From an uncultured Bacteroidota bacterium (GTDB lineage Bacteria; Bacteroidota; Bacteroidia; Bacteroidales; P3), in assembly GCA_902776365.1 (NCBI GenBank), contig CACYPU010000003.1:1-64000 (forward strand): 64,000 bases of DNA, given 5' to 3'. The notes under the pieces are model-generated. The model was not told where the DNA came from, ran no database searches, and saw only the letters and a program-made list of their open reading frames with translations. The position numbers and the translations under genes are program-made. Below, one piece after another: positions 7,343 through 64,000 of this stretch. Every line of letters starts with the position of its first letter. Within the stretch, counting starts at the first letter, position 1.

Positions 7343-11194
<3,852 letters not shown>

Positions 11195-11198
<4 letters not shown>

Positions 11199-11737
11199 TA
11201 GTCGATATTTGGAAACAACTTGCGGAGTTCCGCCAGCTGGGGATTCTTCTCCACCATTGCCTTGTATTTGTCGTCCGGCGAATAGACCACCTCATCCTTG
11301 CTCACAAAAAGCTGGTTTACTTTGCAGTCCAGTAGCTTCATTCCCGTCTTTCCACGCAGAAACTCCATCACGTCGATTTTGTGTGGCTTGAATTCCTCGT
11401 GGAACGACACCGATTGTGCATCCACCTCGAAGCAGCCTGATTTCTCGCCCAAGTGAGGAATGCCTTCCGCCAATAACTCCTGTAAACCCAGTTTTTCTCC
11501 CGCCTCTTTCCAGTAGGCCGCTAAATCCTCCTCAGTCAAAGGTCTCACGTCCACCTCAATATGTTGCACAGGCTCCACTTTCGTCTGCGCCGACTTAATG
11601 GAGATGCCCCCAAGTATCGGCGCCGGCCGCGACTGGCCCGCCGTGGGTCTAGACACAGGATCCGACACAGGTTTTGCCTCCTGTTGAGGCACAGAAGGCT
11701 CCGTCCGAACTGCGTCGGCCGAATTTTCACCTTTCAC
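11195..11737 (-). CDS. dnaX: DnaX C-terminal (tau) part, separated from the ATPase part by an in-frame amber
   Basis: The frame of the ATPase part continues after a TAG at 11788..11786 into this 180-residue segment, whose first possible start is a GTG at 11737. It has a Pro-rich linker then an alpha/beta tail (DVRPLTEEDLAAYWKEAGE to LRKLFPNIDY) of the kind at the end of Bacteroidota tau subunits, which contact the polymerase. The frame is unbroken from 11785 on, so readthrough of the single TAG would give a normal full-length protein. The sequence after the stop (GKGEGLKVKGEN) is encoded by GGTGAAA repeats at 11724-11757. Either a point mutation or a means of making two forms. Confidence 0.65.
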
Positions 11738-11785
11738 CTTTAACCCTTCACCTTTCCCCGTGCCTGCCTCGCGGCCTCTTGCAAT

Positions 11786-12919
11786 CTATCCTTGTGCGGC
11801 CGACTGGTTACCGACCTCTGGCTGCTGACCATTGGCGGCAACCATCTTCATCAGGCATATCTCAACAAACAGATTCTTGTTGTTAGCCTCGCGGAAACGA
11901 TATTCAAAATCGGAAGCAATATTGAGCCACCCCAACAGCGCCGGCAGACCGCACTGCTGTGCCTGCTGCCCATAGCGTTGACGCAGGGTGTCGCCACCAT
12001 CTATCAGACTGAGGGTCTGCGGGTCGAGACTTACCATCAGGTTACGCAGGTGCTCGCAAAGACCCGTCAGGAAATGCTGACCTCCAAAACCCTTGCCAAT
12101 CACCTCCTGGTAAAGCAGCAAGGCGCCACTCATATTACCCCCACGGAAGAAGTCTATCAGCTTAAAGTAATAATCTGAATCAAGCACATTAAGATTCTCA
12201 AGCACACCTTGATAGGTCAGATTCCCTTGGGTAAAGTTCACCAGCTGGTCGAAGATGGAAAGGGCATCACGCAGACCTCCTTCTGCCTTGCGGGCGACGA
12301 CCTCCAGGGCGCCCTCCTCGTACTTCACCCCTTCACTATCGGCCACATACTTCAAGTGACGCACGATATCATCGTTCTCAATCCGCTTGAAATCAAATAC
12401 CTGGCAACGGCTTAAGATTGTCGGAATTATCTTATGTTTCTCTGTGGTGGCGAGGATGAATTTGGCATAGGCCGGCGGTTCCTCGAGGGTCTTCAGGAAA
12501 GCATTGAAGGCCGCCTGACTGAGCATGTGGACCTCATCAATGATATAAACCTTATACTTGCCAGTCTGTGGCGGGATATATACTTGTTTTACAAGCTCAC
12601 GCATATTATCCACCGAGCTGTTCGAGGCGGCGTCGAGCTCGAAAATGCTCATCGAGGCGCCCTCATTGAACGAGCGACAGCTGTCACACTCGTTGCAGGC
12701 CTCGCCGTCGGCAGTGCGGTGCTCGCAATTGATTGTCTTAGCGAGGATTCGAGCACACGTCGTCTTGCCCACGCCCCTCGGACCGCAGAAGAGAAACGCT
12801 TGAGGCAGTTGTCCGGTGGCGATGGCGTTCTTCAGCGTCCGCGTGATATGCTCTTGCCCGACGACACTGGCGAAGGTCGTGGGACGATACTTTCTTGCCG
12901 ATACTACAAAATTATCCAT
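11786..12919 (-). CDS. dnaX: DNA polymerase III gamma/tau subunit, ATPase part
   Basis: The clamp-loader ATPase that opens the sliding clamp during replication. Start chosen at ATG 12919 (MDNFVVSARKYRPTTF), the conserved N-terminus; an upstream in-frame Met would add a hydrophobic leader that crosses the promoter. Features seen: Walker A GPRGVGKTTCA, four zinc-binding Cys (CEH then CNECDSC), Walker B DEVHML and the arginine-finger motif TILSRCQ. This product is 377 residues and ends at an amber codon just after the collar domain, so on its own it would be gamma-like. Promoter at 12946-12957. Confidence 0.92.
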   Translation of the reverse strand: MDNFVVSARKYRPTTFASVVGQEHITRTLKNAIATGQLPQAFLFCGPRGVGKTTCARILAKTINCEHRTADGEACNECDSCRSFNEGASMSIFELDAASNSSVDNMRELVKQVYIPPQTGKYKVYIIDEVHMLSQAAFNAFLKTLEEPPAYAKFILATTEKHKIIPTILSRCQVFDFKRIENDDIVRHLKYVADSEGVKYEEGALEVVARKAEGGLRDALSIFDQLVNFTQGNLTYQGVLENLNVLDSDYYFKLIDFFRGGNMSGALLLYQEVIGKGFGGQHFLTGLCEHLRNLMVSLDPQTLSLIDGGDTLRQRYGQQAQQCGLPALLGWLNIASDFEYRFREANNKNLFVEICLMKMVAANGQQPEVGNQSAAQG

Positions 12920-48193: not shown

Positions 48194-49156
48194 TTACCTG
48201 CCCATCATTGAGTCCTTAAGTCCGGAATCGTATTTTTCTCCCGTCAATTCAGAAAGTAGATAATCATCATCCATCAACTTTATGAATCTTATTGCCTCTG
48301 CCTCACTCTTCAATTCAAATTTACTGCCATCACGGTTATAATGAAATTTAAGCGTTGTTTTATTCTTAACGAAGTCAATTATCTTCCTGACATCCAAGGA
48401 TCCATCTTTCAACTTCACAACCACCTTACTTTTCTGTAAAGCGTGACGCAATTTCTGGCAATTCTTTGGCTTCTGGCATACACTCATCAAGTGCTCATTA
48501 TTTGTAATCAATCCTTTGCCAAGAGTCTTCACATCCCGTTCTGTCTCTTTTTGAAGAATGGCATCCAAATGTAATGGCTTTTCCAGTTTATCCAAATCAG
48601 TTATGATAATCTTTTCATTAATACGCATCATTTGGAAAGAGGGGGAAATCCTCAACATATTTTCCTTCTGTCTTTCAAATAGCCTGTTTTCCTTGCCAAA
48701 AATAAAAAACGCGGATGATGCGTATGCTTTATCTACATTGGTTATCTTCTTAAATAACGTGAGAGAGTGCTGATTATCAACATCCTTGATTACAACGTAG
48801 ATACCGTTAATTCTCTCTATATGTGTGACACTTTTGTCAAAGTATTCTGGTTCTTGGATGCCTACCACCTCCGCCATCCTTACCATTTCTTCCGTCTGCT
48901 GGTCATCCAAGTCATAAATATGCAAAACGCCTTCGCGTTTCAGAGAGGTTGAATAGTCCTCTATAACATATTCCTTTTCAATAGCGACAGTATTAATTGA
49001 CAGTGAAAACATTCCCGTCAACTCATTCAAATCTCTATCAACTATATTAAAAAGCTGAAGCCCCGTGGTGTCAGTTGTAACAAAAATATTAAGAGTCTTT
49101 TCAACATCTTCTTTAATTACAAACTGCAGTTCTGAAATCAATTCTTCTCTTATCAT
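48194..49156 (-). CDS. kwaB: Kiwa defence protein KwaB (DUF4868)
   Basis: 320 residues. It resembles the DUF4868 family that forms the second part of the Kiwa antiphage system. The C-terminal phrase LMDDDYLLSELTGEKYDSGLK is characteristic; earlier parts form an alpha/beta sensor-like domain (IYVVIKDVDN, RINEKIIITDLDKLEKP). In known Kiwa systems KwaB acts with the membrane protein KwaA against phage DNA replication or transcription. Its start overlaps the end of kwaA by four bases, so both are made together. Confidence 0.85.
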   Translation of the reverse strand: MIREELISELQFVIKEDVEKTLNIFVTTDTTGLQLFNIVDRDLNELTGMFSLSINTVAIEKEYVIEDYSTSLKREGVLHIYDLDDQQTEEMVRMAEVVGIQEPEYFDKSVTHIERINGIYVVIKDVDNQHSLTLFKKITNVDKAYASSAFFIFGKENRLFERQKENMLRISPSFQMMRINEKIIITDLDKLEKPLHLDAILQKETERDVKTLGKGLITNNEHLMSVCQKPKNCQKLRHALQKSKVVVKLKDGSLDVRKIIDFVKNKTTLKFHYNRDGSKFELKSEAEAIRFIKLMDDDYLLSELTGEKYDSGLKDSMMGR

Positions 49157-49737
49157 ATCTTATATGCAAAGCAGGTGTTTTCGTCTATAGGGACGTACTT
49201 GAACTTGTCACCGTCTTTCATACGTCCCCAAACAATAATAGTTTTATTGAAGTCATTTGGTTTTTCATGCCTACCAGCAACTTTATAAGCTCTAAAGCCT
49301 AGAAGTAGTAATGTTGGATTGCAATAATAAATATCTGCCTTCACATAAATAACTCCTATCAATATGAAAAGTAGCCCCAATACTGCTACATGTCTCCAGG
49401 TCGTACCAAGGTTAAAGCTGACAAGAGGGAAGAAATAAGATGCGACGAACGACATAACGTCACTACTAACATTTTCATACTTAGTGTCCGTAACAACACC
49501 TAAACGGCTTCCTTTACTCCATTTATACAACCGAAAACAGAAAACGCTTGTAATTAAAAAAAGGATGATACAAATAACCGGTATGATCACACCTTTGCTG
49601 AAAACTATATCCCAACCTAGAAACACCCAGTCGGGACCAAAATATACAGGAATACTTGTTCCTAATATCATAACGATTATTAGGAAGAATACCATTGACA
49701 GTAAATATAATCCGGTCTTATACCACCATTTATTCAT
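49153..49737 (-). CDS. kwaA: Kiwa membrane protein KwaA
   Basis: 194 residues with four membrane helices at about 8-30, 48-68, 92-110 and 117-135, and a conserved C-terminal part (YYCNPTLLLLGFRAYKV then IIVWGRMKDGDKFKYV) typical of KwaA. It would sit in the inner membrane and sense infection for KwaB. It begins only 28 bases after the HA microprotein gene, so Kiwa appears to sit at the end of the RT/primase transcript and not on its own promoter. Confidence 0.85.
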   Translation of the reverse strand: MNKWWYKTGLYLLSMVFFLIIVMILGTSIPVYFGPDWVFLGWDIVFSKGVIIPVICIILFLITSVFCFRLYKWSKGSRLGVVTDTKYENVSSDVMSFVASYFFPLVSFNLGTTWRHVAVLGLLFILIGVIYVKADIYYCNPTLLLLGFRAYKVAGRHEKPNDFNKTIIVWGRMKDGDKFKYVPIDENTCFAYKI

Positions 49738-49765: not shown

Positions 49766-49960
49766 CTAATCTAGCAATTTCTCAAACATCTCCGCTCTCT
49801 CCGCCTTCAATTCTCCCTTATTTTTCAATTTTCTTTGCTGCTTAACCCAGTTAAGCATATCATGCTCCTCTAAACGGTGACGTGACGGATTCCGATGGTT
49901 TGTTTCCATGAAATCCATCACCTCGTTGTATTTCGTAAGCCATCTTTCGTCCTGTGTCAT
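49766..49960 (-). CDS. Helicase-associated (HA) domain microprotein, copy A
   Basis: 64 residues consisting of one helicase-associated domain: W at position 7, FMETNHRNPSRH, NWVKQQRKLKNKGEL and ERAEMFEKLLD follow the family pattern. In larger proteins this domain sits in arrays behind helicases and is thought to bind nucleic acid. Here it stands alone. A close relative is at 59772, sharing MTQDE and the ETNxRNPSxH core. It lies in the run between the 96-residue gene and kwaA. Confidence 0.75.
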   Translation of the reverse strand: MTQDERWLTKYNEVMDFMETNHRNPSRHRLEEHDMLNWVKQQRKLKNKGELKAERAEMFEKLLD

Positions 49961-50000
49961 GAATACCTTGATTAATATGGTTCCAGCTTCAGGCTCTGAT

Positions 50001-50291
50001 TTAGCCTTCTTTAGACATTTCTTCCAATTTATCTGCTGCCCAGCGCAAGGAATCTATGAAGGTCTGAAACTCACAGTCGCCTCCAAGCATAATCTCCACC
50101 TTGCCACGACCTGCTCTAATATCCATATCCGTTGATGCTAAATCCTCTAAGGAGAAATATGTTCTTGAACCGTGGCCGCTATCACCCCCTTGATAACCGT
50201 TTGTTGCAACAGTAGCCTTTAGTATATTAGCAGATGTAAACTGCTCTGATTCTTGCTTGGTGCAGAAACATAAATCATTGAAACTTGCCAT
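50001..50291 (-). CDS. Unknown 96-residue protein next to the RES gene
   Basis: No family recognised. The sequence has a Cys pair near the start (LCFCTK), a Gly-rich middle (GYQGGDSGHGSRTYF) and an acidic helical tail (FIDSLRWAADKLEEMSKEG). It starts 7 bases downstream of the RES-domain gene, so it is cotranscribed with it. It could be the RES protein's antitoxin or partner, although it lacks the helix-turn-helix of the Xre antitoxins usually paired with RES toxins. Confidence 0.6.
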   Translation of the reverse strand: MASFNDLCFCTKQESEQFTSANILKATVATNGYQGGDSGHGSRTYFSLEDLASTDMDIRAGRGKVEIMLGGDCEFQTFIDSLRWAADKLEEMSKEG

Positions 50292-50298
50292 ATCTTTA

Positions 50299-51522
50299 TT
50301 ATGCTTTTTTTATTTCTATTTTACCATCCAATGCCAAAACATCAGAACTCCGTTCTTGATTATAGAACAGCACAAGATTCTTATTACGGTCTTTTGAACT
50401 GCCATAAACAATACCGTCCAAATGCTGCCCATTTATTGCGTACATATAACGCAGGTATTCTGTCAACACCTGTGTCGGTATATATAGTAAGAGATTGTCA
50501 TCATCCTCTGAGACGGGTTTTGTTATCTCCTTATTGAACTGGTGCAGGAACATATTCTCCTGCCATCCAGTCATCCAGAATGAGTTTTCAGGAATGCGTG
50601 TCAAATCTAAAACCATCAAGGGCTTAATTGTTTTGAAAGTCCCCACTATCATTGTCAAAGATTTGTCGCCAACGCACTCCATCTCTGCGGTTTTCTTCAG
50701 ATACGACGCATAGAACATGGAAATCCCTGCCGGACTCATCCTGTTTGGAGTTGCTTTCTCATTAGGAGGTGAAGTAATGTTATTGAAATCAATCCCCTTA
50801 TCCAACTCGTCTTGTCTAACTCGCCTTGCCCTATACACCTTGGTTCCTGTTGGCAAAATCCTACAAATCTTCTGTCCTGTGATTATCGAGGATAGACCTG
50901 TTAGAATATCTCGCTTCTCGCCTTTATTGGTCAGTACAGGAAGGAAATCCGGATTTGCGAGGAAAGTATATCTTTTCTGTGAAGTAACAATCATACAGAA
51001 CTTCTTCCATTGGTCTAATAACCTCTCACTTTTATAATCTTCGCGAAGCAAATCAACACTGATCCACGACTCTGTCTCAAAAACGCTTAAAACATCATTA
51101 TACAATTCCTGATTATCTGGAATAGCATCAAGCGCCTCCAACAGCAGCTCTGTACTATCATAGCACTCCGCCTCGTTTGGAACAATGAATTCTCCAAATC
51201 TCCTAAAACCCTTGATTTCCTCTTCATCATCGTCGTAAAACGAGTGAGCCAGATAAAGAGAGGCATTCTCGGGTTTTGTATAGTAAAGATGTATCTTCCA
51301 TGTTACATCTTCCATCAGTTTCTGGAGGGAACAAACCTTTGTATGCCGCCCACAATAGGAACATTTTCCATTTCCCTCACTCTTTTCCAAGATAATATCA
51401 TTCAGATAGTGATCATGGAAATGGTGGTTACAAACCATTTTATCTGACAAGCCGCCAGGCCAGTCTCCCATTTCCTGTATCTCCATCAAATGATTTTTTA
51501 CCCAGCCCATAGCCGTATTCAC
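50299..51522 (-). CDS. RES-domain protein with N-terminal zinc-binding region
   Basis: 407 residues. The C-terminal half (about 215-400) follows the RES pattern: KVYRARRVRQ near residue 222, NRMSPAGISMFYAS near 258, then E281 in TAEMECVG. RES proteins are NAD-degrading toxins. The N-terminal part contains a likely zinc site (CNHHFHDH near 31-38, CSYCGRH at 54-60 and C64), the arrangement seen before RES domains in longer proteins. It lies 3 bases downstream of the reverse transcriptase gene, so it may be the killing arm of the same system. Confidence 0.75.
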   Translation of the reverse strand: MNTAMGWVKNHLMEIQEMGDWPGGLSDKMVCNHHFHDHYLNDIILEKSEGNGKCSYCGRHTKVCSLQKLMEDVTWKIHLYYTKPENASLYLAHSFYDDDEEEIKGFRRFGEFIVPNEAECYDSTELLLEALDAIPDNQELYNDVLSVFETESWISVDLLREDYKSERLLDQWKKFCMIVTSQKRYTFLANPDFLPVLTNKGEKRDILTGLSSIITGQKICRILPTGTKVYRARRVRQDELDKGIDFNNITSPPNEKATPNRMSPAGISMFYASYLKKTAEMECVGDKSLTMIVGTFKTIKPLMVLDLTRIPENSFWMTGWQENMFLHQFNKEITKPVSEDDDNLLLYIPTQVLTEYLRYMYAINGQHLDGIVYGSSKDRNKNLVLFYNQERSSDVLALDGKIEIKKA

Positions 51523-51525
51523 CTA

Positions 51526-54500
51526 TTATGCATCCAAATACTCTTGTACACTATCAAACATATCAGCGTCAAGTCTCATCTCATCCCGATAACTGATAAT
51601 GAAATTAATCTCTGTTTTGAACAGGGAGTTATTCACAGAAAAGAGATAGTCATTCAAGGCACTCAACTCTTTCACCAACCAGTCGTGTTTCTTCATCATC
51701 CAGCAACAAAGCACCATACACTGATTTTCTGTGCATACAAGCGTACGGTCGTTACCACCCTTGATTCTGATAGTTAAACAATCGTTCCCCTTTACCAACT
51801 GACAGCCTTGGCACTTCATTTTCTTTCCAGCCACAGTCAGCTGTTTGAAATTCAAATAGAGCTTCAAATTGATAATTTCTGTGATGGGTTTTTCTCCCAT
51901 CCCAGCATGCTCGTCGGTAATGTAGTCTGTATCCAGTTCTATCTTATCAGTTATCAAATGCGAAATCCAATGGAACTTTGACGTTGGTGATAAATTCTTC
52001 AAATTCTGCCTCAACAGATGATAGTTTACTCGGTCATTTGCCACATCCAGCAAATCTGCCATCCTGATAAGTATCATCAGATACTTCAGACTGATAGTAT
52101 CATCCTTAGCCCTGGATTTAAGCCCATAAACATCCAGCACATCATAGCCGTGACTCTCAGACACCTTGGCCACGAAAGAAAGCAGTGTCGGTTCCAGATA
52201 GTTCAATAGTGAATTGGAACGGTCACGAATAAACTTCGCACTGTCCTTCGCATGGTTGTCCCTGACTAATGCTTCAAAATAGCCATATACTTGATTGAAA
52301 ACATCTACAAGGAATTTACCCGCATTTTTATATCTCGAATTCTTCTTGTCGTTAAGATCTATATCCCAAAACTTATCTAACTCCGTCTGCATCTGGGTCA
52401 TAAGGTCTGAAATCAGAACAAGATTCTTCCCGTTTTCAGAACTCAACCTGCCCATATCAGGGTGTATCACCATACTGATATCGTGCAGATAACATGCTAA
52501 GAACAAAATATAGAAGTCAATATCCTTAAGGACGAAATAGTCAATACGGTTTGTCAGTTCCAACGACTTAGTTATGAGCGTAACCGCATGTTCCTCATTG
52601 TGTAGTGTATATGAATTTAGGAACTTCGAGCCGTTATACCACAAACCTTTCGTCAATCTGTGGGTGACAATCAAAGAATCCACCCATTCTGGTTTCCTTA
52701 CGTTTCTGATAAAGATATTAAGCACTTCCAGGACACCCATATCAATTCCCATCTGATTGGATATGTCTTTCTCCTTGATATGCTCGATAAACTCCTCAAA
52801 ATTCTCCAAATCAAAGTTTTGATTCCTTAGATAAGCAAGAATTCTCAGTTCAGAATAGCGAAGCCTTCTTGCATTCATCTTCGTAAAGGCGAGAGCATCC
52901 GACGGCACAACATCCATTATTTCTGAGAAATACACATTCAGTATTCTTCGTTGGTATTCAGCAGAGGCACTCATCACAAATAACGTGAACGTCTTACCTT
53001 CGAAGCCTCCCTCCAGCATACCATAGATGCTGTGTAGGTTTATTTCTTGCTTTTCATTTACAGGCTCTAGGAAGTTTCTGAACTTCACCATCTGCTTGTC
53101 AGGATCCATGCTCTTCAGACCACTGAAGTTTTCTTTTGACCAGCGAACCAAAGATGTATAGATGTCTTGGGTCAGAGATTTAATCTTGAAGGCAGCCTTT
53201 ACATCCTTCGTATAAAAGAGGTAAGACAAACGACCTTCCGTTTTCATTCCACACGACTCCAACATCAGTTTCTCAAATCGTTCAATTTCCTCTATAATGC
53301 GTCCCGCTCCCTTCTTTGATAGCTTCTGGATTAGCAACCGATACTCCGACTGAAATATATCTTCATCAAACTGTTCGAAGAATTCTTCTGCTTTGGTCGC
53401 TTTATCAAGGAATCGCTTACTGAAGTCGTTCAACATTTCTTCGCTGGGGCCACCTTCCTCCCTGATTCTCAGAAGACGGTTCCTGTAGAGAAAGAATTTC
53501 TTGAATCTGCGTAGTAGCTTAAGCCTTGAAGCAAGTGCATCACCGTTTTTGTTACTATCTGCCGCAGCTTTCTGCTTTTTGGTCAGTTCATCGATTTCCC
53601 GTGAGATAACTCTATCCAAAGCCTGTAACTTCTTGAGAGACACATGGTCGTCTACCTCATCCAGATTGTATGCAAGCTTTGAATGCATAGAGGTTTCACG
53701 TGTGATGTTGGATATTGGACCATACTGGTTGTCTGCATCATCAATATGCGTAAAGACACTTTTACCGTCTTCGTGGAATCGTATCTCATAGATCAACTTC
53801 TTCTGAAAGTCTAGACAATCTGTCCCAATATAATCACTTAACGAGCTACCAGCATTTATCTTATCTTCACACCAGCTAGCAAGACTCGTATTTAGTTTGC
53901 CAATCTTACCCTTAAACGTCTCGTCATCCAACTTCGCTTGGATGTAAATGACAGAATCATCCACATAGAAATAAGCATCACCCTCAAAGTATTCTTTCTT
54001 CATCAGTAGCCGCTTCACCTCTATCATACAGAGATTGCCAAAGAAATACGACTGAGGCAAACCTTGCGGGATCCCACAGTTCATATAGAATTCAGCTCCA
54101 GTCAAGTCAGCCTCCTCCGGATAGTAATACTCTTTCCAAGGCTCAATATTTTCCTTATCAATCTTGAAATACAAGAGCTTCGCTACCGCTTTGCTCAAAT
54201 CCTCCTTATCATGCTCATATGTCTTTGACATTTTGCTGATGATATAGTCATACAGCATCTTTGGCGATATTGACGGAAAGAAATTCTTGATGTCAAGACT
54301 CACTTCCGTCAGATAACTGTGGTTCTGCTGATAAGTTCGACAATGTTCAATTACCTCTTCAGTATACTCCTTATATTTTGTCTGCCACTTGTGGAAAAGG
54401 AATTGAACATCCGTGCTGGGTATGTTGCCATAGAAATTATGAGGGAGCAGTTTAGAAAGGTCAGAAAGTTTCCTTTCGCCCTTCTCAAAGTCATCATCAA

Positions 54501-54906
54501 ACATCAGACAATTCATGATGCTTACCATACATATCAAGTCAATCAGCCTTGCCGTATGCATCGGGCGGAACTTCAGTTTTCCATCATCATAATTCTTGAG
54601 TTTGAAATAGACCGTTGCGTCAAAGAGATGTTCCTTTTCCGCTAACACCCACTTCAACTTTTGCTGGCATAAACCTATAACCTTCTCTATCAGCTCAACA
54701 TTGTGCTTGTCGGCAAGGGCAAAGTATAGTTCAAGGTCATTGGCCGCTATAGGTTCACTGACAACGCCATCATCATCAAACGGGACAACAGGCCTCTCTG
54801 TATCCAACAACCCCTTGTCGAATACATACGATTCCATACAGAATATCGAGTTGAAGATATTCCGTTCATCCAGTATTTTATCTATCAACTTTAGTTTCCC
54901 GTTCAT
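51526..54906 (-). CDS. Reverse transcriptase fused to an HD domain
   Basis: 1126 residues. The reverse transcriptase core lies at about 110-420: motif A SLDIKNFFPS with D205, motif B CGIPQGLPQS at 277-286 and the catalytic YVDD at 314-317. The middle (420-760) is helical and unrecognised. An HD phosphohydrolase-like domain follows at about 765-1000, with HNEEH at 769-773 and LHDIS at 807-811. A Cys/His cluster (CQGCQL) lies near the C-terminus. It lacks maturase and integrase domains, and no retron RNA or variable repeat is apparent, so it is best placed with the Abi/unknown-group defence RTs. The start overlaps the 227-residue gene by four bases. Confidence 0.88.
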   Translation of the reverse strand: MNGKLKLIDKILDERNIFNSIFCMESYVFDKGLLDTERPVVPFDDDGVVSEPIAANDLELYFALADKHNVELIEKVIGLCQQKLKWVLAEKEHLFDATVYFKLKNYDDGKLKFRPMHTARLIDLICMVSIMNCLMFDDDFEKGERKLSDLSKLLPHNFYGNIPSTDVQFLFHKWQTKYKEYTEEVIEHCRTYQQNHSYLTEVSLDIKNFFPSISPKMLYDYIISKMSKTYEHDKEDLSKAVAKLLYFKIDKENIEPWKEYYYPEEADLTGAEFYMNCGIPQGLPQSYFFGNLCMIEVKRLLMKKEYFEGDAYFYVDDSVIYIQAKLDDETFKGKIGKLNTSLASWCEDKINAGSSLSDYIGTDCLDFQKKLIYEIRFHEDGKSVFTHIDDADNQYGPISNITRETSMHSKLAYNLDEVDDHVSLKKLQALDRVISREIDELTKKQKAAADSNKNGDALASRLKLLRRFKKFFLYRNRLLRIREEGGPSEEMLNDFSKRFLDKATKAEEFFEQFDEDIFQSEYRLLIQKLSKKGAGRIIEEIERFEKLMLESCGMKTEGRLSYLFYTKDVKAAFKIKSLTQDIYTSLVRWSKENFSGLKSMDPDKQMVKFRNFLEPVNEKQEINLHSIYGMLEGGFEGKTFTLFVMSASAEYQRRILNVYFSEIMDVVPSDALAFTKMNARRLRYSELRILAYLRNQNFDLENFEEFIEHIKEKDISNQMGIDMGVLEVLNIFIRNVRKPEWVDSLIVTHRLTKGLWYNGSKFLNSYTLHNEEHAVTLITKSLELTNRIDYFVLKDIDFYILFLACYLHDISMVIHPDMGRLSSENGKNLVLISDLMTQMQTELDKFWDIDLNDKKNSRYKNAGKFLVDVFNQVYGYFEALVRDNHAKDSAKFIRDRSNSLLNYLEPTLLSFVAKVSESHGYDVLDVYGLKSRAKDDTISLKYLMILIRMADLLDVANDRVNYHLLRQNLKNLSPTSKFHWISHLITDKIELDTDYITDEHAGMGEKPITEIINLKLYLNFKQLTVAGKKMKCQGCQLVKGNDCLTIRIKGGNDRTLVCTENQCMVLCCWMMKKHDWLVKELSALNDYLFSVNNSLFKTEINFIISYRDEMRLDADMFDSVQEYLDA

Positions 54907-55586
54907 TCTGTACTCCCCTCTTTTTTATTGAGCATAGCAAGAGCTGCATCAATAATCTTCTCAGCATCAGATGCTTTTTTCCGTCTTCCTGCCATCAGGA
55001 TACACTCTTTGGATTTCACCGTAAAGTTATAATCCCTCTTCACTGTAGCTATCCGATGAAAGTTTTCCCATAGAACACTCGCTTTCACAAAAGGCTTTTC
55101 CCCTGTCAAAGAGACATCAATAATGTCGTTCATTACCACATGAACATCTTTCGTTGTTCCTGTCTTTCTCGCGAGCATATTAATATCTGAAAGAACATTA
55201 TCCAGAAAACGGATACCCTCTATAAGAAACTCTTTGTAGCTGCTTTCTCGCTTTCTTAAATAATTCCACGAATAGTCAAACTGTGGATTCTGGGAGATAT
55301 AGAAGATGAATCCAGCCAAATGAACGTCATTATTCACTTTGACATCTATGGCATTCCTCAACTTCTCGTCATCACGATGGCTTTCATCGTTATACTCATT
55401 GGCTCTGTCTATCAACATTTGCAAGACAATCAGCTTGGATTGCCGTTCTCGTGATGCCTTATCATCAGTCTGTGCGTCTTCATCATTTATGACAACACTT
55501 TCCTGTATATCATCCAGCAGCATCTGGAAAGTATATACTTCATTAGGCGCTACCGCCAGTGCCTTTTCATTATTTGCCATCAGCAA
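54903..55586 (-). CDS. Unknown 227-residue protein between primase and RT
   Basis: No family recognised. Largely helical and charged: an acidic N-terminal third (VVINDEDAQTDDKASRERQ), a helical middle (NPQFDYSWNYLRKRESSYK), and a basic segment AGRRKKASDAEK near the end. It overlaps the primase gene by 17 bases and the reverse transcriptase gene by four, so all three must be translated in step. It may be the adaptor that joins the two polymerases. Confidence 0.7.
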   Translation of the reverse strand: MLMANNEKALAVAPNEVYTFQMLLDDIQESVVINDEDAQTDDKASRERQSKLIVLQMLIDRANEYNDESHRDDEKLRNAIDVKVNNDVHLAGFIFYISQNPQFDYSWNYLRKRESSYKEFLIEGIRFLDNVLSDINMLARKTGTTKDVHVVMNDIIDVSLTGEKPFVKASVLWENFHRIATVKRDYNFTVKSKECILMAGRRKKASDAEKIIDAALAMLNKKEGSTE

Positions 55587-56619
55587 CCTGTGTTGAAATA
55601 TAATAATCGCAATAATCTTTCATGCCGTCGGGCAACTTTTCTGCTTTCACCATGGAATAGTTATTAACAAAGAAACGCCTCAGTTCCATGAAAGCCTTCT
55701 GACCTGCTTCATCCTGGTCTGGATACATGTGCAAATCATAATTCTTCAGCAGTAATAAGTCTTCTAAAGGTTGAATGGTGGCACTAGGTATTGCCACTGC
55801 CTTTAAACCAGAAGACATCATTGCCAGACAATCCGTTATCCCTTCACTAATATAAAGCTTATCACCTCTATTTAGGGTGTTCAAAATAGGGAGGTTAAAC
55901 AATCTGGTTTTCTGTGCAGCCAAAAACTGGAATCTTGGAGCATCTTTCTTTTCTCCTAAGTATCTCGATTGAATTCCAGCTATTTTACCGTCCTCTTCAT
56001 AATAGGGGAAAAGCAGGCAAGGTGTGTAGAAATAGAAGTAAGTCCCATATTCTCCTCGTCTGACAATCCCTGACTTCACACATCTATCTTCTCCAAATTT
56101 TAATATAAGTGAATCCTTTGCCTTCTTTGAGTCCGTTACCGATTTGATGTTGAGGCCCTGGATAACATCTTTCCTGAAACAGCGCTCATCAAACAAGAAC
56201 TTCTGTGCAATTCTCGACAATCTCGCATTATCAATCAGCCACAAAAGTATTTCCTCATCAAGAGCATAAACTTGATCATCTTTCTTTGTCAAGTAGGTTT
56301 TGCGGACGGTCTTCTTGGCAGGTTTTGCATGGCCTTGATTCTCAGGAATAATGACATTAAACTCCTTCGCCAGCCAAAGACAGGCTTCTTGAAAGCTCCA
56401 TCCCTCATGTTCCATCACAAGTTGAATGGGTCCGCCTCCTTTGTCACAGACAAAGCAGAAGAACAAATTCTTCACTGTGCTGAACTTCAAACTGGGCGTA
56501 TGGTCGTTATGCATAAAGCAATGAGCCTTATGCCGCTTCACTTCCAACCCCAACTTTTCAGCTACGGGCTCAATGGACAGTTCGTTTAAACGGATTACTA
56601 TGTCTTCAGGAATCTTCAT
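55570..56619 (-). CDS. DnaG-type primase (CHC2 zinc finger + TOPRIM)
   Basis: 349 residues. The N-terminal zinc ribbon has C34 and H37 in HCFMHNDHTPSL and C55/C58 in CFVCDKGG, as in phage and plasmid primases. The TOPRIM part has YISEGITDCLA with E259 and the acidic MYPDQDEAG near residue 299. It lacks the C-terminal helicase or DnaB-interaction domain of cellular DnaG and is much shorter. It could make RNA primers for the reverse transcriptase encoded two genes downstream. Confidence 0.88.
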   Translation of the reverse strand: MKIPEDIVIRLNELSIEPVAEKLGLEVKRHKAHCFMHNDHTPSLKFSTVKNLFFCFVCDKGGGPIQLVMEHEGWSFQEACLWLAKEFNVIIPENQGHAKPAKKTVRKTYLTKKDDQVYALDEEILLWLIDNARLSRIAQKFLFDERCFRKDVIQGLNIKSVTDSKKAKDSLILKFGEDRCVKSGIVRRGEYGTYFYFYTPCLLFPYYEEDGKIAGIQSRYLGEKKDAPRFQFLAAQKTRLFNLPILNTLNRGDKLYISEGITDCLAMMSSGLKAVAIPSATIQPLEDLLLLKNYDLHMYPDQDEAGQKAFMELRRFFVNNYSMVKAEKLPDGMKDYCDYYISTQVADGK

Positions 56620-56633
56620 TCATTCTGCTCAAT

Positions 56634-57602
56634 CTACCTAAAAACCGTCAGCTTATTCAAGAAATTAGCCATTGACTTCAACTTCTCACGTGAAGCCTCG
56701 TCTATTCCTTCTGGATCGAAATGCATCACATCGTTACGAATGTTACGTACATCATCAAACATCTGGACAAAAAGAGAACGGTCTACCGATTTCAACCCTA
56801 TTCGCTCCCAATGTTTTGGATTTTCAAATAAACACTGATATTCTCCAAATGTCAAGTCGTCAATAGCATTCACTTTACGACCCTCCTCTTGACATACTTT
56901 CTGCAAATCCTCCATCAAAATTTTCTCATCGAGCAAATGACGAACCTGATTTTCTATTTGTTCAAGTATTACAAATGGCTCTGTCCATGTCAGGAACTGC
57001 GATGAAACATCAGCAGTAGTAACTATTCCACAAGGGGTTCCGTCATTTTCAATAACAACGATGAAATCATTACAATATATCTCCCTAATTGCAAGCATTA
57101 GTGGCGTATCACGTTTATACACCTTAATATTCTCCCGTTTATAGTCCTTTACTTCATTTGAGTCCACTCCTTTCGATCTCGCCTCCCCAATTGTTTCCCA
57201 TGAGATAAACCCGACTATTTTACGAGGACCACCCATAACTGGCAACTGTGAATAGTTATTCATCATCATGAGTGTGATTGCCTTGTCCAAGCAGTCGCTA
57301 TTATCCACAACTGCCGGCTTGGTATTTGCTGCCTTCAACAAGCCAATGCGTTTAATCGGGTCTTCTCTTCGCCTTTTCTTTGCTTTAGGTTTGGGTCGTA
57401 ACTCTATCTCACTATCTATCCACACCTCAAAATAATGAGGTTCCACTTCTAGGTCATTTTCTTTCAAGAAGTTGTCAATCAAATCACACGCCCCTGGAGA
57501 ACGCTTTTCATAGCCCACGGCGGCCACAAGTGTTCTTGGGGTAATTTTCTTAGGGCAGTTTGTCTCTTTAATTTCCCTTGCCAAAGCTTCAAGCGTAGTC
57601 AT
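56634..57602 (-). CDS. CBS-pair protein with HEPN-like C-terminus
   Basis: 322 residues. After an N-terminal region of about 85 residues that ends in a Lys/Arg-rich stretch there are two CBS motifs at about 92-205 (for example LMMMNNYSQLPVM and IVVIENDGTPCGIVTTADV), which in other proteins bind adenine nucleotides. The C-terminal helical part holds RNDVMH at 289-294, an R-x4-H motif typical of HEPN ribonucleases. It is the first gene of the RT/primase run, 14 bases ahead of the primase. It may sense a nucleotide and cut RNA. Confidence 0.75.
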   Translation of the reverse strand: MTTLEALAREIKETNCPKKITPRTLVAAVGYEKRSPGACDLIDNFLKENDLEVEPHYFEVWIDSEIELRPKPKAKKRRREDPIKRIGLLKAANTKPAVVDNSDCLDKAITLMMMNNYSQLPVMGGPRKIVGFISWETIGEARSKGVDSNEVKDYKRENIKVYKRDTPLMLAIREIYCNDFIVVIENDGTPCGIVTTADVSSQFLTWTEPFVILEQIENQVRHLLDEKILMEDLQKVCQEEGRKVNAIDDLTFGEYQCLFENPKHWERIGLKSVDRSLFVQMFDDVRNIRNDVMHFDPEGIDEASREKLKSMANFLNKLTVFR

Positions 57603-57753: not shown

Positions 57754-58782
57754 TCAATCATAAACACCTCGCATAATGAAATCTGGGGTATCAAAAGTGG
57801 ACATTCCGATGGAATGCTCCTTCATAATCTTTATTTCTGCATCATTGAGAGGGTATTTCTTTAAAAACGGCTTAACAACAACTGAATCATATAACTCTAC
57901 ATTTGCATTCATTGTGGCATGCATCTCCCTAAATTTTTTCACAAATGCCGCCAGTTTCTCATCAGACCTGTCCGTTCCCTTGTATAGCACATAGAAGTTC
58001 TCAACCTTCTGTTGGTGATTCGTGTCAATGATCTCATATTCATCTTCTCGCAAAGCATTCTCTATCTTGCGCCGCAATGAAAACTTCAAGTCAGCATTGA
58101 AATCATATGAACCTGCCATTGGGGCCATCTCGTAGATATCAACATCCCTCCCCTGCAGACCATCAATAATTCGTTTCCTGTGCGAATCATTCATCCTAAA
58201 CCACAGAAATACAGCCTTCAGCGCGGCCTTATTAAAGGTCTTTACTCCTGGCTTATCATATACCAATCTAAACTCTTTTTCACGTTTCCAATCCGATTCC
58301 TTGGTACCAAGCATCTTTTGTAACAATAGGGCTTCTGACGAGAAGTCCGTCGCGTCTACTATTGGGACATTTTCCTGATAGTTTACAGTTACCCTATTAA
58401 CTAACCAAGGAAACTGCTCATTCTGTACCAACTTATCTACATCGTATGCAGCACAGAAACCTGTATATTCTCCAGCATAAAGCGACCATAGCAGTTTATT
58501 ATTAGGATAACCTACATCCGATAAAGCTAGAGAATAAACGCCAACACCCCCAACAGTCTTTTTCAATTCCTTCCACTGTGCCCTAATAGAGCTCACGTCA
58601 TAATGGAAGGTAGCAGCAATCACGTCCAACTGTTCATCAACACTATCTGTATACCGCCCTTCAAAACAGTCGTTAAGCTTTTCTAAAGGCGATGCGTATA
58701 TTTGATCTGCAAGCAACATATCTATGTCCCTGCACTTGCCACCATCTTCCTCTTTACATGCTCTGTATTTGAAAGCAATCAT
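57754..58782 (-). CDS. DUF2971 domain protein
   Basis: 342 residues. The middle part (about 80-190) follows the DUF2971 pattern: VYSLALSDVGYPNNKLLWSL, then YAGEYTGFCAAYD, and WKREKEFRLVYD with conserved aromatic and acidic residues. The family is common in defence islands and mobile elements, but its activity is not established. The gene stands alone between two gaps, and its start overlaps a short GC-rich open frame. Confidence 0.75.
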   Translation of the reverse strand: MIAFKYRACKEEDGGKCRDIDMLLADQIYASPLEKLNDCFEGRYTDSVDEQLDVIAATFHYDVSSIRAQWKELKKTVGGVGVYSLALSDVGYPNNKLLWSLYAGEYTGFCAAYDVDKLVQNEQFPWLVNRVTVNYQENVPIVDATDFSSEALLLQKMLGTKESDWKREKEFRLVYDKPGVKTFNKAALKAVFLWFRMNDSHRKRIIDGLQGRDVDIYEMAPMAGSYDFNADLKFSLRRKIENALREDEYEIIDTNHQQKVENFYVLYKGTDRSDEKLAAFVKKFREMHATMNANVELYDSVVVKPFLKKYPLNDAEIKIMKEHSIGMSTFDTPDFIMRGVYD

Positions 58783-60009: not shown

Positions 60010-60804
60010 TTAAACCTGAAAAGTAAAATAAGGTCTTAACTCCTCCCCTCTCTTTCTGAACAGCTCTTTTGCTATTGCGATTCTCAGTTCTTGAGGGACT
60101 TGGGGATTGGGAGGTAGTAGTTTATTTACAACTTTCTCAAAATGGGCTGGGTCTCTATCAGGATTGAATACCTCATCAAAAGAATGCTCAGCCGTCATAA
60201 TAAAGAATTCGGTTTTTTTCTTGCCGTCAGGGAGATCTTTCGAAAAATCAATTTCACTATTCAGTGCCTTTATGGCTCTGTGAAAATCTAATATGTTATA
60301 ATAGTCAGAATAAAAAGCCTCAAAGCCCTTCTGGGCATCAGGCATCATTACTGTTCTAGTATTCGCTATGATTGCTCTATATGGTGCCCTTTGTTCTGGT
60401 TCAATATGGGATAGAATCCCTCCTCCCACACATGAAGATAGAACCAAAAGCAAGTTATTGCCCATTATCACATTTAGCTGGCGGGTATAATAGAAAAGTT
60501 CAGCCCACTGAACCTCGTTCGTCCCCATCATAGTACCAATCCCATCCTCATATCCATGAGCAACAATATGGAGAGTAAATATTGTACCCTTTTCGGTTCT
60601 ATTGATAAGGTCCTTAAGAACTGCGATAAACTCTCCTTTTGAATTGACTTTATGATATTCAACAAAGTAATTAGCACGTTCTCCTTCTTTGCACCTAATC
60701 ATATTGTACAACTCTTCTCCAAGTTGAGGATCTGTATCCTTCAACCATTGAATAATGACAATACCTTCTCTTGTTATTTCAAAATCTTCCATATAAAAAG
60801 TCAA
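60010..60804 (-). CDS. Caspase/CHAT-like cysteine protease
   Basis: 264 residues. The catalytic pair of the caspase-like fold is visible: H83 in FTLHIVAHGYEDG and C125 in NLLLVLSSCVGGGI, each after a hydrophobic beta strand and with the usual spacing of about 40 residues. The rest is alpha/beta with a helical C-terminus. No prodomain, repeat or sensor is fused, so control must come from partners. It starts 5 bases after the HExxH protease gene. A start at MEDFE four codons later is also possible. Confidence 0.72.
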   Translation of the reverse strand: MTFYMEDFEITREGIVIIQWLKDTDPQLGEELYNMIRCKEGERANYFVEYHKVNSKGEFIAVLKDLINRTEKGTIFTLHIVAHGYEDGIGTMMGTNEVQWAELFYYTRQLNVIMGNNLLLVLSSCVGGGILSHIEPEQRAPYRAIIANTRTVMMPDAQKGFEAFYSDYYNILDFHRAIKALNSEIDFSKDLPDGKKKTEFFIMTAEHSFDEVFNPDRDPAHFEKVVNKLLPPNPQVPQELRIAIAKELFRKRGEELRPYFTFQV

Positions 60805-60809
60805 TAAGA

Positions 60810-62210
60810 CTATTGTCCTGTTTCGAAAATAGGTTCATGTCCAGTCAGATTCCAGTGACGCCAGATAGCCGCAACTGGACAATAATCTGTATCTTCTTGC
60901 GCCCTTTTCCAAGGTGCATTATCACAACGTTCATTCACAGTTATTTGAGAACCCGACTGAGTGGAACTCCATTTACAATAATCTTTCAATAGGCATTCTT
61001 TCGCCCTATAGTCGCCGCCAAATATCCTTCTTATTTCATCAATTGCCCAATATAAACCTGGCATAAAACTCTCAGAAGGCTTGAAACCTTGAGGGGGGAC
61101 TATAGAGCCTTCATTATCCGAGTTGATAACCAATGGTGTCCCTAAACCTAAATAAATGGAGCAGAATGCCGGATTGCTCCTCACATCACCTTGATTACAG
61201 AGTAAAACATCCAGGAAATAATGTGGAGCAATATCTCTTAATTCCTTTGCCTTCTTCCAAACTACATTAATCCAATCATTAAGCTCCGAAGCAATTGGCA
61301 TCTTGAAATACTCTTTAATTTCGTCATATACGTATGATTGAATATTTGCAAAGCGTTCAATTGTAAAGTGAATAAACTCGTGCCCGATTCTATATAATTC
61401 ATCACATATATTAATAACATCTTCATCATTATTCACTTGAACTCGTTTTACAAAACCGATATCTCGCAAATGTTCCAGAAGCTTTACAAACGTTAAACCG
61501 GGGTTAAAAGTCAATAAAGATAAATCTGCAACTCCAACAACAAATTCAAGATATTTTGCCAAATCCGGATAAATCAGTTCTGCCAGCATCCAATTAATCA
61601 TATATGGATAATCAGACGCATCTTTATATGGGAAACCATTCTGAGTGAACACAGATTGAAAGCAGCGCCTTTCTATCATGTATGCCATACCTTCGGTCAA
61701 AATATTACCACCGAAAATGGAACAGTGTTCTTCGTTTGTTTGGGTATCTTTATATACTAAATGAACATATTCTATAGTTTCTCCTTGTACATCTGTTTGT
61801 CTAACTTCATATGATACAATTTCGACCTGTTGATGCTTTGGATTAATCGGAGAACCAACATAGTATTTTCTCAACAATAAGTTTCTAAAACCGAAATCTC
61901 CTCTATTATCTTGTATCTCTTGCGGTACTCTAAAAGTACCTTTTTCCATCTTTCCCACACTAGCTGCGACAGATCTTACAAAGTAAGTAGTAACACTAAG
62001 GTTCATTAACCCATATAATGTGGTTACATCTTGTAAGTAATGTACATATTCGTGGAAGAAAAAAGAAAAAGCCCCAAATGGAATATTTGGAACATCATGG
62101 AAATTGGCTAACACCCCTAGTTTTATCCTAAAAAAAGAAGGGATATAATAGTTTCTTCCATCAAAAGCCTCCTGTATGACAGATTTTGAAATCGTCACCA
62201 TATAGTTCAT
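60810..62210 (-). CDS. HExxH putative metalloprotease
   Basis: 466 residues. H53-E54-Y-V-H57 in FFFHEYVHYLQD is a zincin active-site motif; E173 in LTEGMAYMIE is a candidate third zinc ligand. The remainder is helical with several Cys, including a C-terminal cluster (CLLKDYCKW, NERCDNAPW, DYCPVAAIW) that may bind a second metal. No signal peptide, so it acts in the cytoplasm. It is the first gene of a four-gene operon with the caspase-like protein, the HA microprotein and the unknown 234-residue protein. The family was not recognised. Confidence 0.68.
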   Translation of the reverse strand: MNYMVTISKSVIQEAFDGRNYYIPSFFRIKLGVLANFHDVPNIPFGAFSFFFHEYVHYLQDVTTLYGLMNLSVTTYFVRSVAASVGKMEKGTFRVPQEIQDNRGDFGFRNLLLRKYYVGSPINPKHQQVEIVSYEVRQTDVQGETIEYVHLVYKDTQTNEEHCSIFGGNILTEGMAYMIERRCFQSVFTQNGFPYKDASDYPYMINWMLAELIYPDLAKYLEFVVGVADLSLLTFNPGLTFVKLLEHLRDIGFVKRVQVNNDEDVINICDELYRIGHEFIHFTIERFANIQSYVYDEIKEYFKMPIASELNDWINVVWKKAKELRDIAPHYFLDVLLCNQGDVRSNPAFCSIYLGLGTPLVINSDNEGSIVPPQGFKPSESFMPGLYWAIDEIRRIFGGDYRAKECLLKDYCKWSSTQSGSQITVNERCDNAPWKRAQEDTDYCPVAAIWRHWNLTGHEPIFETGQ

Positions 62211-62460: not shown

Positions 62461-63273
62461 TTATTTCTCGATATGATACTTTTGTTTAATATACTGAGGA
62501 ACCTCAGTATAGGGAGATTGTAAATCATAGCCATGATACTCCCAATTGCCTGAATGATGAAAGCAAACATAACATCTATTCACAGCATCCCATGTATAAA
62601 GAGATTCGGGAGGGTTGCTATGTGTATAATCCCCTTCAAAATCATCCATTGCCTTGGCCAGCAGAGCTTCTGCTTCTTTCGTGTCGTTCGGGTCATAAGC
62701 AGAAAAAGGAGAAACATCCTTGCCATCAATCTTGTAAGCAAACTGATGATGTTTCAATTGAATAAGAACTGGATGAAACTTTTGGAAATATTCTTTTACT
62801 GCATTCCCACCAGATACGTTAAGCAAATCATGCTTCCTTGTCGAAGTCTTGATTGCGGTTTCCAGTAAGTCATTTTCTCCAAACCCCCGAGTCGATTCAA
62901 TAATATATGCCGTATCCGATGATTCTTCCTGTTTATGCATGGCCACCAACTGGGTCTTCATTTCCGTTTTAACCTTTGCGGACAATCCATCATCAACGAC
63001 ATTAGGAGTTGTCAAAACTATAGCAGCGTCCCCATCATCTTGATAGGATTCGAAGTTCACATTAGAAATCTCTTTCCAGAACAATTCCGGGAGACGGCTA
63101 TGCCCAAAAAGCATTTCATACAATGCATCTCTGAACAAGATGAATCCCTTCCCGGCGCTGACCTCGCGAATAATATCAGTAGTTTCCTCCAACCTCCAAT
63201 AAGCGAGGTCTGGAGAAGAACAATCCACTGCCGTCAGCAAAGGCAAATCTATGGCCACCACACACTTCATCAC
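62461..63273 (-). CDS. Unknown 270-residue partner of the AAA ATPase
   Basis: No family recognised. The N-terminus (MMKCVVAIDLPLLTAVDC) has beta-alpha character, followed by a mixed alpha/beta body with Asp- and Glu-rich segments and a C-terminal Trp/Tyr/His-rich part (WDAVNRCYVCFHHSG). Its start overlaps the ATPase gene stop by four bases, so the two are a coupled pair, a layout common in two-gene antiphage systems where an ATPase sensor drives a nuclease or other effector. Nuclease motifs are not obvious. Confidence 0.6.
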   Translation of the reverse strand: MMKCVVAIDLPLLTAVDCSSPDLAYWRLEETTDIIREVSAGKGFILFRDALYEMLFGHSRLPELFWKEISNVNFESYQDDGDAAIVLTTPNVVDDGLSAKVKTEMKTQLVAMHKQEESSDTAYIIESTRGFGENDLLETAIKTSTRKHDLLNVSGGNAVKEYFQKFHPVLIQLKHHQFAYKIDGKDVSPFSAYDPNDTKEAEALLAKAMDDFEGDYTHSNPPESLYTWDAVNRCYVCFHHSGNWEYHGYDLQSPYTEVPQYIKQKYHIEK

Positions 63274-64000
63274 TTCTCAGCCAGTTTTGCTTTAACAATT
63301 GCTTTGAAATCCTCGTCCTGAGAGTCCAGGAATCCTTTTGGCAGCGAAGAAGTAAAAGTACCTTGGTTATCTATCTTGCAGCTTACATACAAGCTTTGTC
63401 CGTTCATATTCTCCACATAGCACAGATTTACATCTTTTTCTGGCGAAACCTTGCCCTCGGCAATCCTACGACGTAGTCGTGTCACAATATGGTCGCTATG
63501 AGTTTCCACCACTACCTTACGTCCTTTCTCTGTCAATTCAATAAAGAAATCCACCAGCATACCCTGAATTTGCGGATGCAAATGTGCTTCAGGATCAACG
63601 ACCACAAATGTTCCACCTTTGGGCGTCAGCAACCCTTGGACCACAATGGGAAGAATCTGACTTAAACCATATCCCATATGTATCAAATCCACCTTCGCGC
63701 CCATCGTATTAATCACGACAGTCCGATATAACATATTGGAATCCTTCAACACCTCAAACGATTGTGCCATTCCCATATGGTCGCAAACCCAACGGCTTAC
63801 AACTTGTGTCAAAGTCCCATCATAGCCTTCCACCTGTTTATTCTTCCATTGATTAAGCAAAAACCGCGTGTTTTCTCCATGAATACCTACGTCTTCAAAC
63901 GACAGACTACCATAGCTTTTAGCTAGCACAGGTTCTACCCTGCTGGGGCCAAGATACTCCATCTTCTCAAACCATGCCGTCAATGCCGTGAGTAAATCCT
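63270..64000 (-). CDS. AAA ATPase with DUF3696-like C-terminus (partial)
   Basis: The frame is open to the right edge, so only the last 243 or so residues are visible and the Walker A motif lies outside the window. Seen: IHMGYGLSQILPIVVQGL (signature-like), Walker B VVVDPEAHLHPQ, and THSDHIVTRLRRRIAEGK, the ending found in ABC-type AAA proteins with DUF3696. Such proteins resemble the ATPases of overcoming-lysogenization-defect and other antiphage pairs. It overlaps the downstream partner gene by four bases. Confidence 0.85.
   Translation of the reverse strand, partial: DLLTALTAWFEKMEYLGPSRVEPVLAKSYGSLSFEDVGIHGENTRFLLNQWKNKQVEGYDGTLTQVVSRWVCDHMGMAQSFEVLKDSNMLYRTVVINTMGAKVDLIHMGYGLSQILPIVVQGLLTPKGGTFVVVDPEAHLHPQIQGMLVDFFIELTEKGRKVVVETHSDHIVTRLRRRIAEGKVSPEKDVNLCYVENMNGQSLYVSCKIDNQGTFTSSLPKGFLDSQDEDFKAIVKAKLAEK

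Follow-up and report, generated by a model that had tools for sequence, protein, structure and literature searches.

Several defence-associated reverse transcriptases (DRTs) have been characterized. Class 1 reverse transcriptases (RTs) are template-free and class 2 RTs are templated by a non-coding RNA (ncRNA), with double-stranded DNA as the product of DRT3 (PMC13174585). In DRT1, a class 3 RT-nitrilase, template-free and protein-primed DNA synthesis activates the nitrilase, and the class 3 systems DRT1 and DRT5 needed no added template and remained active in the presence of RNase (PMC13275509). DRT10 consists of an RT of unknown group (UG) 17, a SLATT protein and an ncRNA, all of which are required (PMC12632851). 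DRT7 figures in an overview as an RT-primase-polymerase (PMC13213688), and AbiA comprises RT-like, helical and HEPN domains (PMC11077055). UG24 appears only as a table label (PMC8934634), and no functional study of it was found in the literature searched, with most subscription papers outside the reach of that search. Here, we analysed a UG24-type operon in a 64,000-nt stretch of an uncultured Bacteroidota bacterium (GCA_902776365.1, contig CACYPU010000003.1, positions 1 to 64,000; hereafter the window). The initial annotation of this operon had seen in it a combination outside any named system; however, PADLOC-DB 2.0.0 already holds the profiles RT_UG24, RTasDnaG-like, RTas1299 and RTas1808, and the pairing of RT and primase is catalogued there as a probable antivirus system. 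Our comparison resolves what had been a vague cluster of RT and primase into a cassette of three genes whose limits are exactly defined, in which the partner is constant and the first gene can be exchanged.

The largest gene of the cassette (window 51526-54906, minus strand) encodes a 1126-aa UG24-type RT with a middle helical region and, towards the C-terminus, an HD-CE domain and a four-cysteine motif. When searched against defence-RT profiles, as had been proposed with the initial annotation, the protein gave a full-length match to PADLOC RT_UG24 (1229 bits; residues 6-1125, profile positions 3-1035 of 1036), followed by Drt1a at only 41 bits. Pfam detected RVT_1 (35 bits) and HD-CE (95.2 bits), and the earlier motif readings agree with the translation: D205, GIPQGLPQS (278-286) and YVDD (314-317) in the RT part, and HNEEH (769-773) and LHDIS (807-811) in the HD part. 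Among the matches listed in a literature search for HD-CE, only unrelated work was found. In an alignment of 25 RTs, D205, D316, D317, H769, H773, H808, D809 and D951 were invariant, as were C1032, C1058, C1063 and C1067. These four cysteines (residues 1032-1067) likely form a zinc site, of which no description was found in the accessible parts of the literature consulted. Ten tyrosines were also invariant and can be regarded as candidate protein-priming residues only. The catalytic, HD and cysteine positions of the 25 RTs were unchanged irrespective of the presence of a primase gene.

An AlphaFold2 model of the RT (predicted local distance difference test, pLDDT, 80.6) gave 9d4s as the best fold match (E = 3.8e-6), with AbiA (8oz7; E = 2.7e-5) and DRT4 (9vdv; E = 2.7e-4) among the further matches. 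Since other RTs and viral polymerases score equally well or better than AbiA and DRT4, the fold match shows little beyond the RT core, and both of these systems are without HD domain and without primase. Assignments as a retron RT (retron St85 model, 27 bits against a cut-off of 235) or as a group II intron RT (21 bits against a cut-off of 300) were rejected.

Directly upstream, and overlapping the RT start by 4 nt, lies the gene of a partner protein of 227 aa, here called P227 (54903-55586, minus strand). Judged by the starts of its relatives, translation more likely begins at an ATG two codons in (position 55580; 225 aa). P227 had no match at E 0.1 in Pfam, PADLOC, NCBIfam or PHROGs and no sequence match in the PDB, and a fold search with its AlphaFold2 model (pLDDT 80.6) returned nothing at E 0.001 in the PDB or BFVD. 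Several weak PDB hits to a dsRNA-binding fold were not significant and were not used.

The first gene of the cassette (55570-56619, minus strand), which overlaps P227 by 17 nt, encodes a 349-aa DnaG-type primase with a CHC2 zinc finger and a TOPRIM core. PADLOC RTasDnaG-like matched it with 354 bits, Pfam identified CHC2 (53.8 bits) and Toprim_2 (29.7 bits), and the PDB entry of DnaG, 2au3, was matched at E = 1.9e-21. The protein is without the helicase-binding C-terminus of the ~650-aa replicative DnaG, and the NCBIfam dnaG model scored 105.9 bits, below its cut-off of 283.6. The zinc ligands C34, H37, C55 and C58 and the TOPRIM residues E259, D263, D301 and D303 were invariant in all 14 aligned primases. 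The overlapping arrangement of the three genes given in the initial annotation is confirmed.

The limits of the cassette were defined by its closest copy, L047, which shares 88% DNA identity with the window over a stretch that begins one base ahead of the primase start and ends two bases past the RT stop. By blastn, this homology is confined to W 7381-12477, corresponding to window 56620-51524 (minus strand; 51524-56620 in ascending order). Since it ends at the primase start and the RT stop, the window and L047 cannot share a flanking ncRNA, and these boundaries argue against one. Furthermore, 20 kb of the window searched against Rfam gave no match at E 0.1. An ncRNA-driven mechanism of the DRT2/9/10 type was accordingly rejected for the flanks, although an RNA might lie within the coding sequence. 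A second copy, L036, matches the window with 83% identity; the match starts within the last 31 codons of the gene preceding the primase and ends at the same base past the RT, and there is one further, unrelated 51-base match. Purifying selection acts on all three genes, which are thus no chance frames, as judged by low ratios of non-synonymous to synonymous substitution (Ka/Ks): against the 91%-identical copy L033, 0.103 for the primase, 0.087 for P227 and 0.039 for the RT, and against L047, 0.10, 0.32 (few changes) and 0.05, respectively. We also observed that the RT is mosaic relative to L047, with mismatches rising from 5% to 23% at residue ~313 (window 53966), immediately ahead of the YVDD motif; the pattern looks like a block exchange of primase, P227 and the N-terminal part of the RT.

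To place the cassette among its relatives, 30 UG24 loci were examined, the window included. L068 was dropped (same contig as L055), L033 and L036 are the same locus and were counted once, and L034 and L035 equal L059 and L058. The partner could be counted in 29 loci (L042 has no upstream DNA) and the primase in 28 (L039 and L042 left out). The RT alignment left out L042, L051, L056, L059 and L075, which are cut, broken or near-duplicate, and the primase alignment L056 and L058. Relatives were obtained in several ways. A query of joined motif stretches returned two full-length relatives at ~36% identity, and an alignment including both (A1) returned 22 genome loci and the same two viral contigs. 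Genome searches centred on L057, which belongs to a Firmicute (Agathobacter ruminis), added L069-L071 and L074 as full-length and L075 as truncated loci. A viral scan with the whole RT found no relative, a phage search for the RT gave no match, and a plasmid search gave one partial match, in the HD part. The recurrence of the cassette in relatives at 36-91% RT identity rejects the notion of a chance cluster.

UG24 RTs are rare. Although 54 of 395 genomes of the window's phylum matched the RT profile at E 0.001, a full-length match was obtained for the window's genome alone, the ranges of the others covering the RT or the HD part alone. UG24 RTs were found in two genomes among 393 of the window's order (one being that of the window), and in 5 of 299 and 3 of 391 genomes of the family and class of L057, respectively (the centre included). 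One copy with 67% RT identity (L044) lies outside the Bacteroidota, on a contig titled Akkermansia muciniphila, as the result of either transfer or a mislabelled bin. In L049, L056 and L059, the cassette is flanked by several related ORFs (open reading frames) that look tyrosine-recombinase-like by eye and may point to a mobile or phase-variable element.

Co-occurrence with the RT differed between the two upstream genes. A P227-type or RTas1299-type ORF was located directly upstream of the RT in all 29 loci with upstream DNA, mostly overlapping it; gaps of 1-42 nt occur in L043, L046, L049, L056, L058 and L059, a gap of 196 nt with broken frames in L051, and the partner ORF of L039 is cut by the contig end. 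RT, P227 and primase do occur together, the primase being intact or nearly so in 15 of 28 loci, partial in one (L058) and absent from 12 (L041, L050, L052, L053, L054, L055, L057, L069, L070, L071, L074 and L075), including all 10 Firmicutes loci. In L051, the primase frame is without its usual start, and the RT frames of L051 and L056 are broken. Because the primases of L049, L051, L056 and L059 are near-identical (98.5-100%), the 15 loci represent fewer independent cases. Eleven of the 12 primase-less loci encode a full-length RT with the same catalytic residues, and in the twelfth, L075, the RT is cut.

In 6 of the 10 Firmicutes loci, the place of the primase (slot 1) was filled by another protein close to the partner. 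RTas1808 occupies slot 1 in L069-L071 with 4-nt overlaps; two of these proteins were scanned with PADLOC and both matched (368 and 314 bits), and the third shares 67% identity with one of these. A resemblance of RTas1808 to ADP-ribosyltransferases, motif-like by eye (R, S, ExE), found no support in Pfam or in PDB sequences and was rejected. In L055 and L057, a RES-like protein is found 36 and 39 nt from the partner, sharing key residues by eye with the RES protein of the window. Slot 1 of L074 contains a DUF4231 protein (57.8 bits, cut-off 24.7) overlapping by 11 nt, with SLATT_1 at 19.7 bits, below cut-off, and no PADLOC match. In a tree of the 25 RTs, the primase loci fall on one side together with L039, L041 and L050, and the Firmicutes on the other, where the three RTas1808 loci cluster, as do the two RES-like loci; the exact places of the long branches L050, L074 and L071 are unsure. 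No description of slot-1 exchange in UG24 was found in the literature consulted.

The Firmicutes partners matched PADLOC RTas1299 in six of six cases scanned, and the Bacteroidota-side partners in none of five (P227 of the window and four others, including that of L050). With a P227 profile, two of nine Firmicutes partners (9.0 and 8.9 bits) exceeded the best of 200 shuffles (5.5 bits), and the partners of L050 and, in a separate run, L075 scored 30 and 16.8 bits. P227 is probably a remote Bacteroidota form of RTas1299, with common descent of the two being likely. The window otherwise agrees with the UG24 set that PADLOC lists among its UG/Abi DRTs, sharing its RT and its primase, and with relatives that carry RTas1299 and RTas1808; it differs in its Bacteroidota-side partner, which has no PADLOC counterpart.

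From the exchange at slot 1 and the precedents of DRT1 and DRT10, we infer that RT and P227 form a core driving an output that can be exchanged. Like DRT1, the window encodes a large RT with a C-terminal enzymatic domain, an HD domain here and a nitrilase there, and it has in addition a separate partner and a primase. It resembles DRT10 in that the RT may act with a separately encoded effector, an analogy underlined by the DUF4231/SLATT-like protein of L074; DRT10, however, needs an ncRNA upstream of SLATT (PMC12632851), and the cassette shares no such flank with L047. On balance, we consider it somewhat probable that the operon is a UG24-type DRT with a two-gene core of RT-HD and P227 (RTas1299 type) and an exchangeable slot 1, here a primase, acting downstream of the RT in abortive infection. 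Under this model, the RT would make DNA upon infection from its own protein primer and without an ncRNA, P227 would link the enzyme in slot 1 to the RT or to the DNA made by it, and that enzyme would execute or complete the response. The primase would most likely act on single-stranded DNA (ssDNA), be it the RT product or phage or host DNA, laying down primers such that the product is made double-stranded or replication stalls, leading to abortive infection. The HD domain might trim or reset the product, or consume nucleotides. If so, UG24 would represent one RT scaffold wired to at least four outputs (primase, RTas1808, RES-like and DUF4231/SLATT-like).

Several observations weigh against this model. 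The similarity between P227 and RTas1299 is remote: seven of the nine Firmicutes partners did not rise above the shuffles, and hhalign gave 71% for a six-sequence set containing L050, compared with 8% for nine Firmicutes sequences without it. The RES assignments in L055 and L057 scored 15.6 and 14.2 bits in Pfam, below the cut-off of 23.2. A slot-1 enzyme is not universal among primase-less loci. Upstream of the partner, L041 contains ORFs of 83 and 88 aa with no Pfam match above cut-off, and L050 a glycosyltransferase gene at 1 nt that looks part of a surface-sugar cluster. The neighbours in L052-L054 are 68-230 nt distant: a DUF1016 nuclease (L053, 68 nt) and a TIR protein (L054, 105 nt), both too far to call coupled, and a GNAT/pyrophosphatase protein (L052, 230 nt). 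L075 has no slot-1 neighbour, and a clear slot-1 candidate is lacking in L041, L050 and L052 as well. Moreover, primases occur on one side of the RT tree only, which reduces the exchange to few evolutionary events, and the genome and viral scans rested on two 8-residue patterns, so that the sample is not exhaustive and leans towards relatives that keep them.

In some relatives, the primase is replaced by other proteins, in part toxin-like, which suggests a possible role for it as weapon or finisher rather than as supplier of primers. More specifically, the primase could have been recruited as an effector of RT-based immunity, freed from the replicative helicase and switched on by RT-made DNA via P227, so that over-priming or duplexing of ssDNA stops phage replication; we put this forward tentatively. 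When 295 genomes of the window's order were scanned with the primase profile, only the window and G503 exceeded 570 bits, and frames of housekeeping size (~650 aa) reached at most 137 bits, compared with 593. Two short, free-standing CHC2-TOPRIM-type primases (L106 and L107) scored 260 and 201 bits as whole proteins, having appeared in the genome scan in two pieces each (136+121 and 101+99 bits), and seem to resemble the UG24 primase more closely than housekeeping DnaG does. The 18 kb read contained no UG24 RT. By eye, the neighbouring genes resemble a mobile element, which makes recruitment of the primase from such an element possible. If slot 1 truly houses effectors, replication-type primases would join immune effectors as a new kind, and the question becomes whether the primase is the RT's primer supplier, a second-strand maker or a weapon.

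The first of these roles is the one originally proposed, with short primers made by the primase and extended by the RT in one polymerising machine. The invariance of the primase's catalytic residues in all 14 sequences fits this explanation. Primase, P227 and RT distances also correlate across 12 primase-bearing loci (Mantel r 0.88-0.95; L051, L056, L058 and L059 left out), as is expected for any co-inherited genes. In addition, other RT groups are joined with primases. In DRT7/UG10, a primase-polymerase domain lies in one chain with the RT (PMC13213688), unlike the separate DnaG-type protein of the window; UG29 was the second PADLOC match of the window's primase, and matched this protein only (105 bits; positions 10-328 of a 2280-long profile). 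As a general rule, however, primer supply fits badly with the 12 of 28 loci that lack the primase while the aligned RT residues stay invariant. L041, for instance, keeps the RT (72% identity) and P227 with no primase match at E 1e-4, and the template-free UG RTs described in the cited work prime on their own residues (PMC13174585, PMC13275509). We therefore regard primer supply as unlikely, if possible within the primase-bearing branch.

Alternatively, the DNA made by the RT could keep slot 1 or the HD domain inactive until a phage removes it, in the manner of a retron or of DRT1. The authors of the DRT1 study liken that system to a minimal retron with antitoxin DNA (PMC13275509), those of the DRT10 study propose control of SLATT by cDNA (PMC12632851), and a DUF4231/SLATT-like protein does occur in slot 1 of L074. 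Such DNA could equally activate its target, and we consider inhibition of a toxin to be rather improbable.

Even less probable is a single six-gene system extending over the genes on either side of the cassette. Here the gene calls agree with the initial annotation: all six genes lie on the minus strand at the positions given there, with the CBS-HEPN gene upstream and the RES and 96-aa genes downstream. The upstream gene (56634-57602; 322 aa) encodes a DS-11-type anti-phage protein (NCBIfam DS11_antiphage, 337 bits, cut-off 260) with a Pfam CBS domain (34.3 bits); its HEPN part was not detected by Pfam and is assigned by the DS11_antiphage match and an RN-x3-H stretch seen by eye. Downstream, a 407-aa protein (50299-51522) combines HEPN_RES_NTD1 (76.8 bits) with RES (43.3 bits), followed by an uncharacterised 96-aa protein, P96 (50001-50291), with no match in Pfam, PADLOC or NCBIfam. 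The tight spacing (14 nt from DS-11 to the primase, 3 nt from the RT stop to RES) speaks for one unit, and RES-like proteins adjoin UG24 in L055 and L057 too. L036 retains a remnant of 31 DS-11 residues; the gene was thus probably present in the ancestor of this branch and lost in L036 while the cassette was kept. This remnant, however, was the only trace of DS-11 that tblastn (E 1e-4) found in 24 other loci, in which neither the window's RES nor P96 had a copy; some flanks were short, and the search missed remote RES-like proteins. L047 shares the cassette alone, without DS-11, and L033/L036 carry an unrelated 431-aa protein (L033:5656-6951) in place of RES directly after the RT stop; it has no Pfam, PHROGs or PADLOC match, and an RNDSAH stretch was read as HEPN-like by eye. 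Finally, DS-11 defends as a one-protein system in which CBS and HEPN residues are required (PMC13092281). Six genes as the core were therefore rejected: DS-11, RES and P96 do not belong to it, RES being perhaps an added effector.

An RT serving housekeeping or element maintenance is very improbable, since the surroundings of some copies (a sugar aminotransferase gene upstream in L047, downstream genes that look surface-sugar-like by eye in L033/L036, and the recombinase-like ORFs around L049, L056 and L059) stand against a rare and patchy distribution, defence genes adjoining several copies, and the listing of UG24 in PADLOC.

The defence role suggested earlier is instead likely, given that UG24 belongs to the DRT set of PADLOC and that the window also carries Kiwa, DS-11 and other PADLOC candidates. 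A Kiwa pair (KwaA, 138 bits; KwaB, 169 bits) lies downstream of the operon (window 48194-49737), which places the operon in a defence island. On the other side, window 57754-58782 encodes a DUF2971 protein that matches the PADLOC candidate PDC-S31 (95 bits). Further along, two adjacent proteins of 264 and 466 aa (window 60010-62210) have no Pfam or PADLOC match; the former shows caspase/CHAT-like H-G and SSC stretches by eye and the latter an HEYVH metallopeptidase-like motif, and the two form a possible unnamed protease pair. Near the end of the window (62461-63983), the gene of an NsnB-like ATPase (146 bits) overlaps that of a protein with a C-terminal match to NsnC (32 bits).

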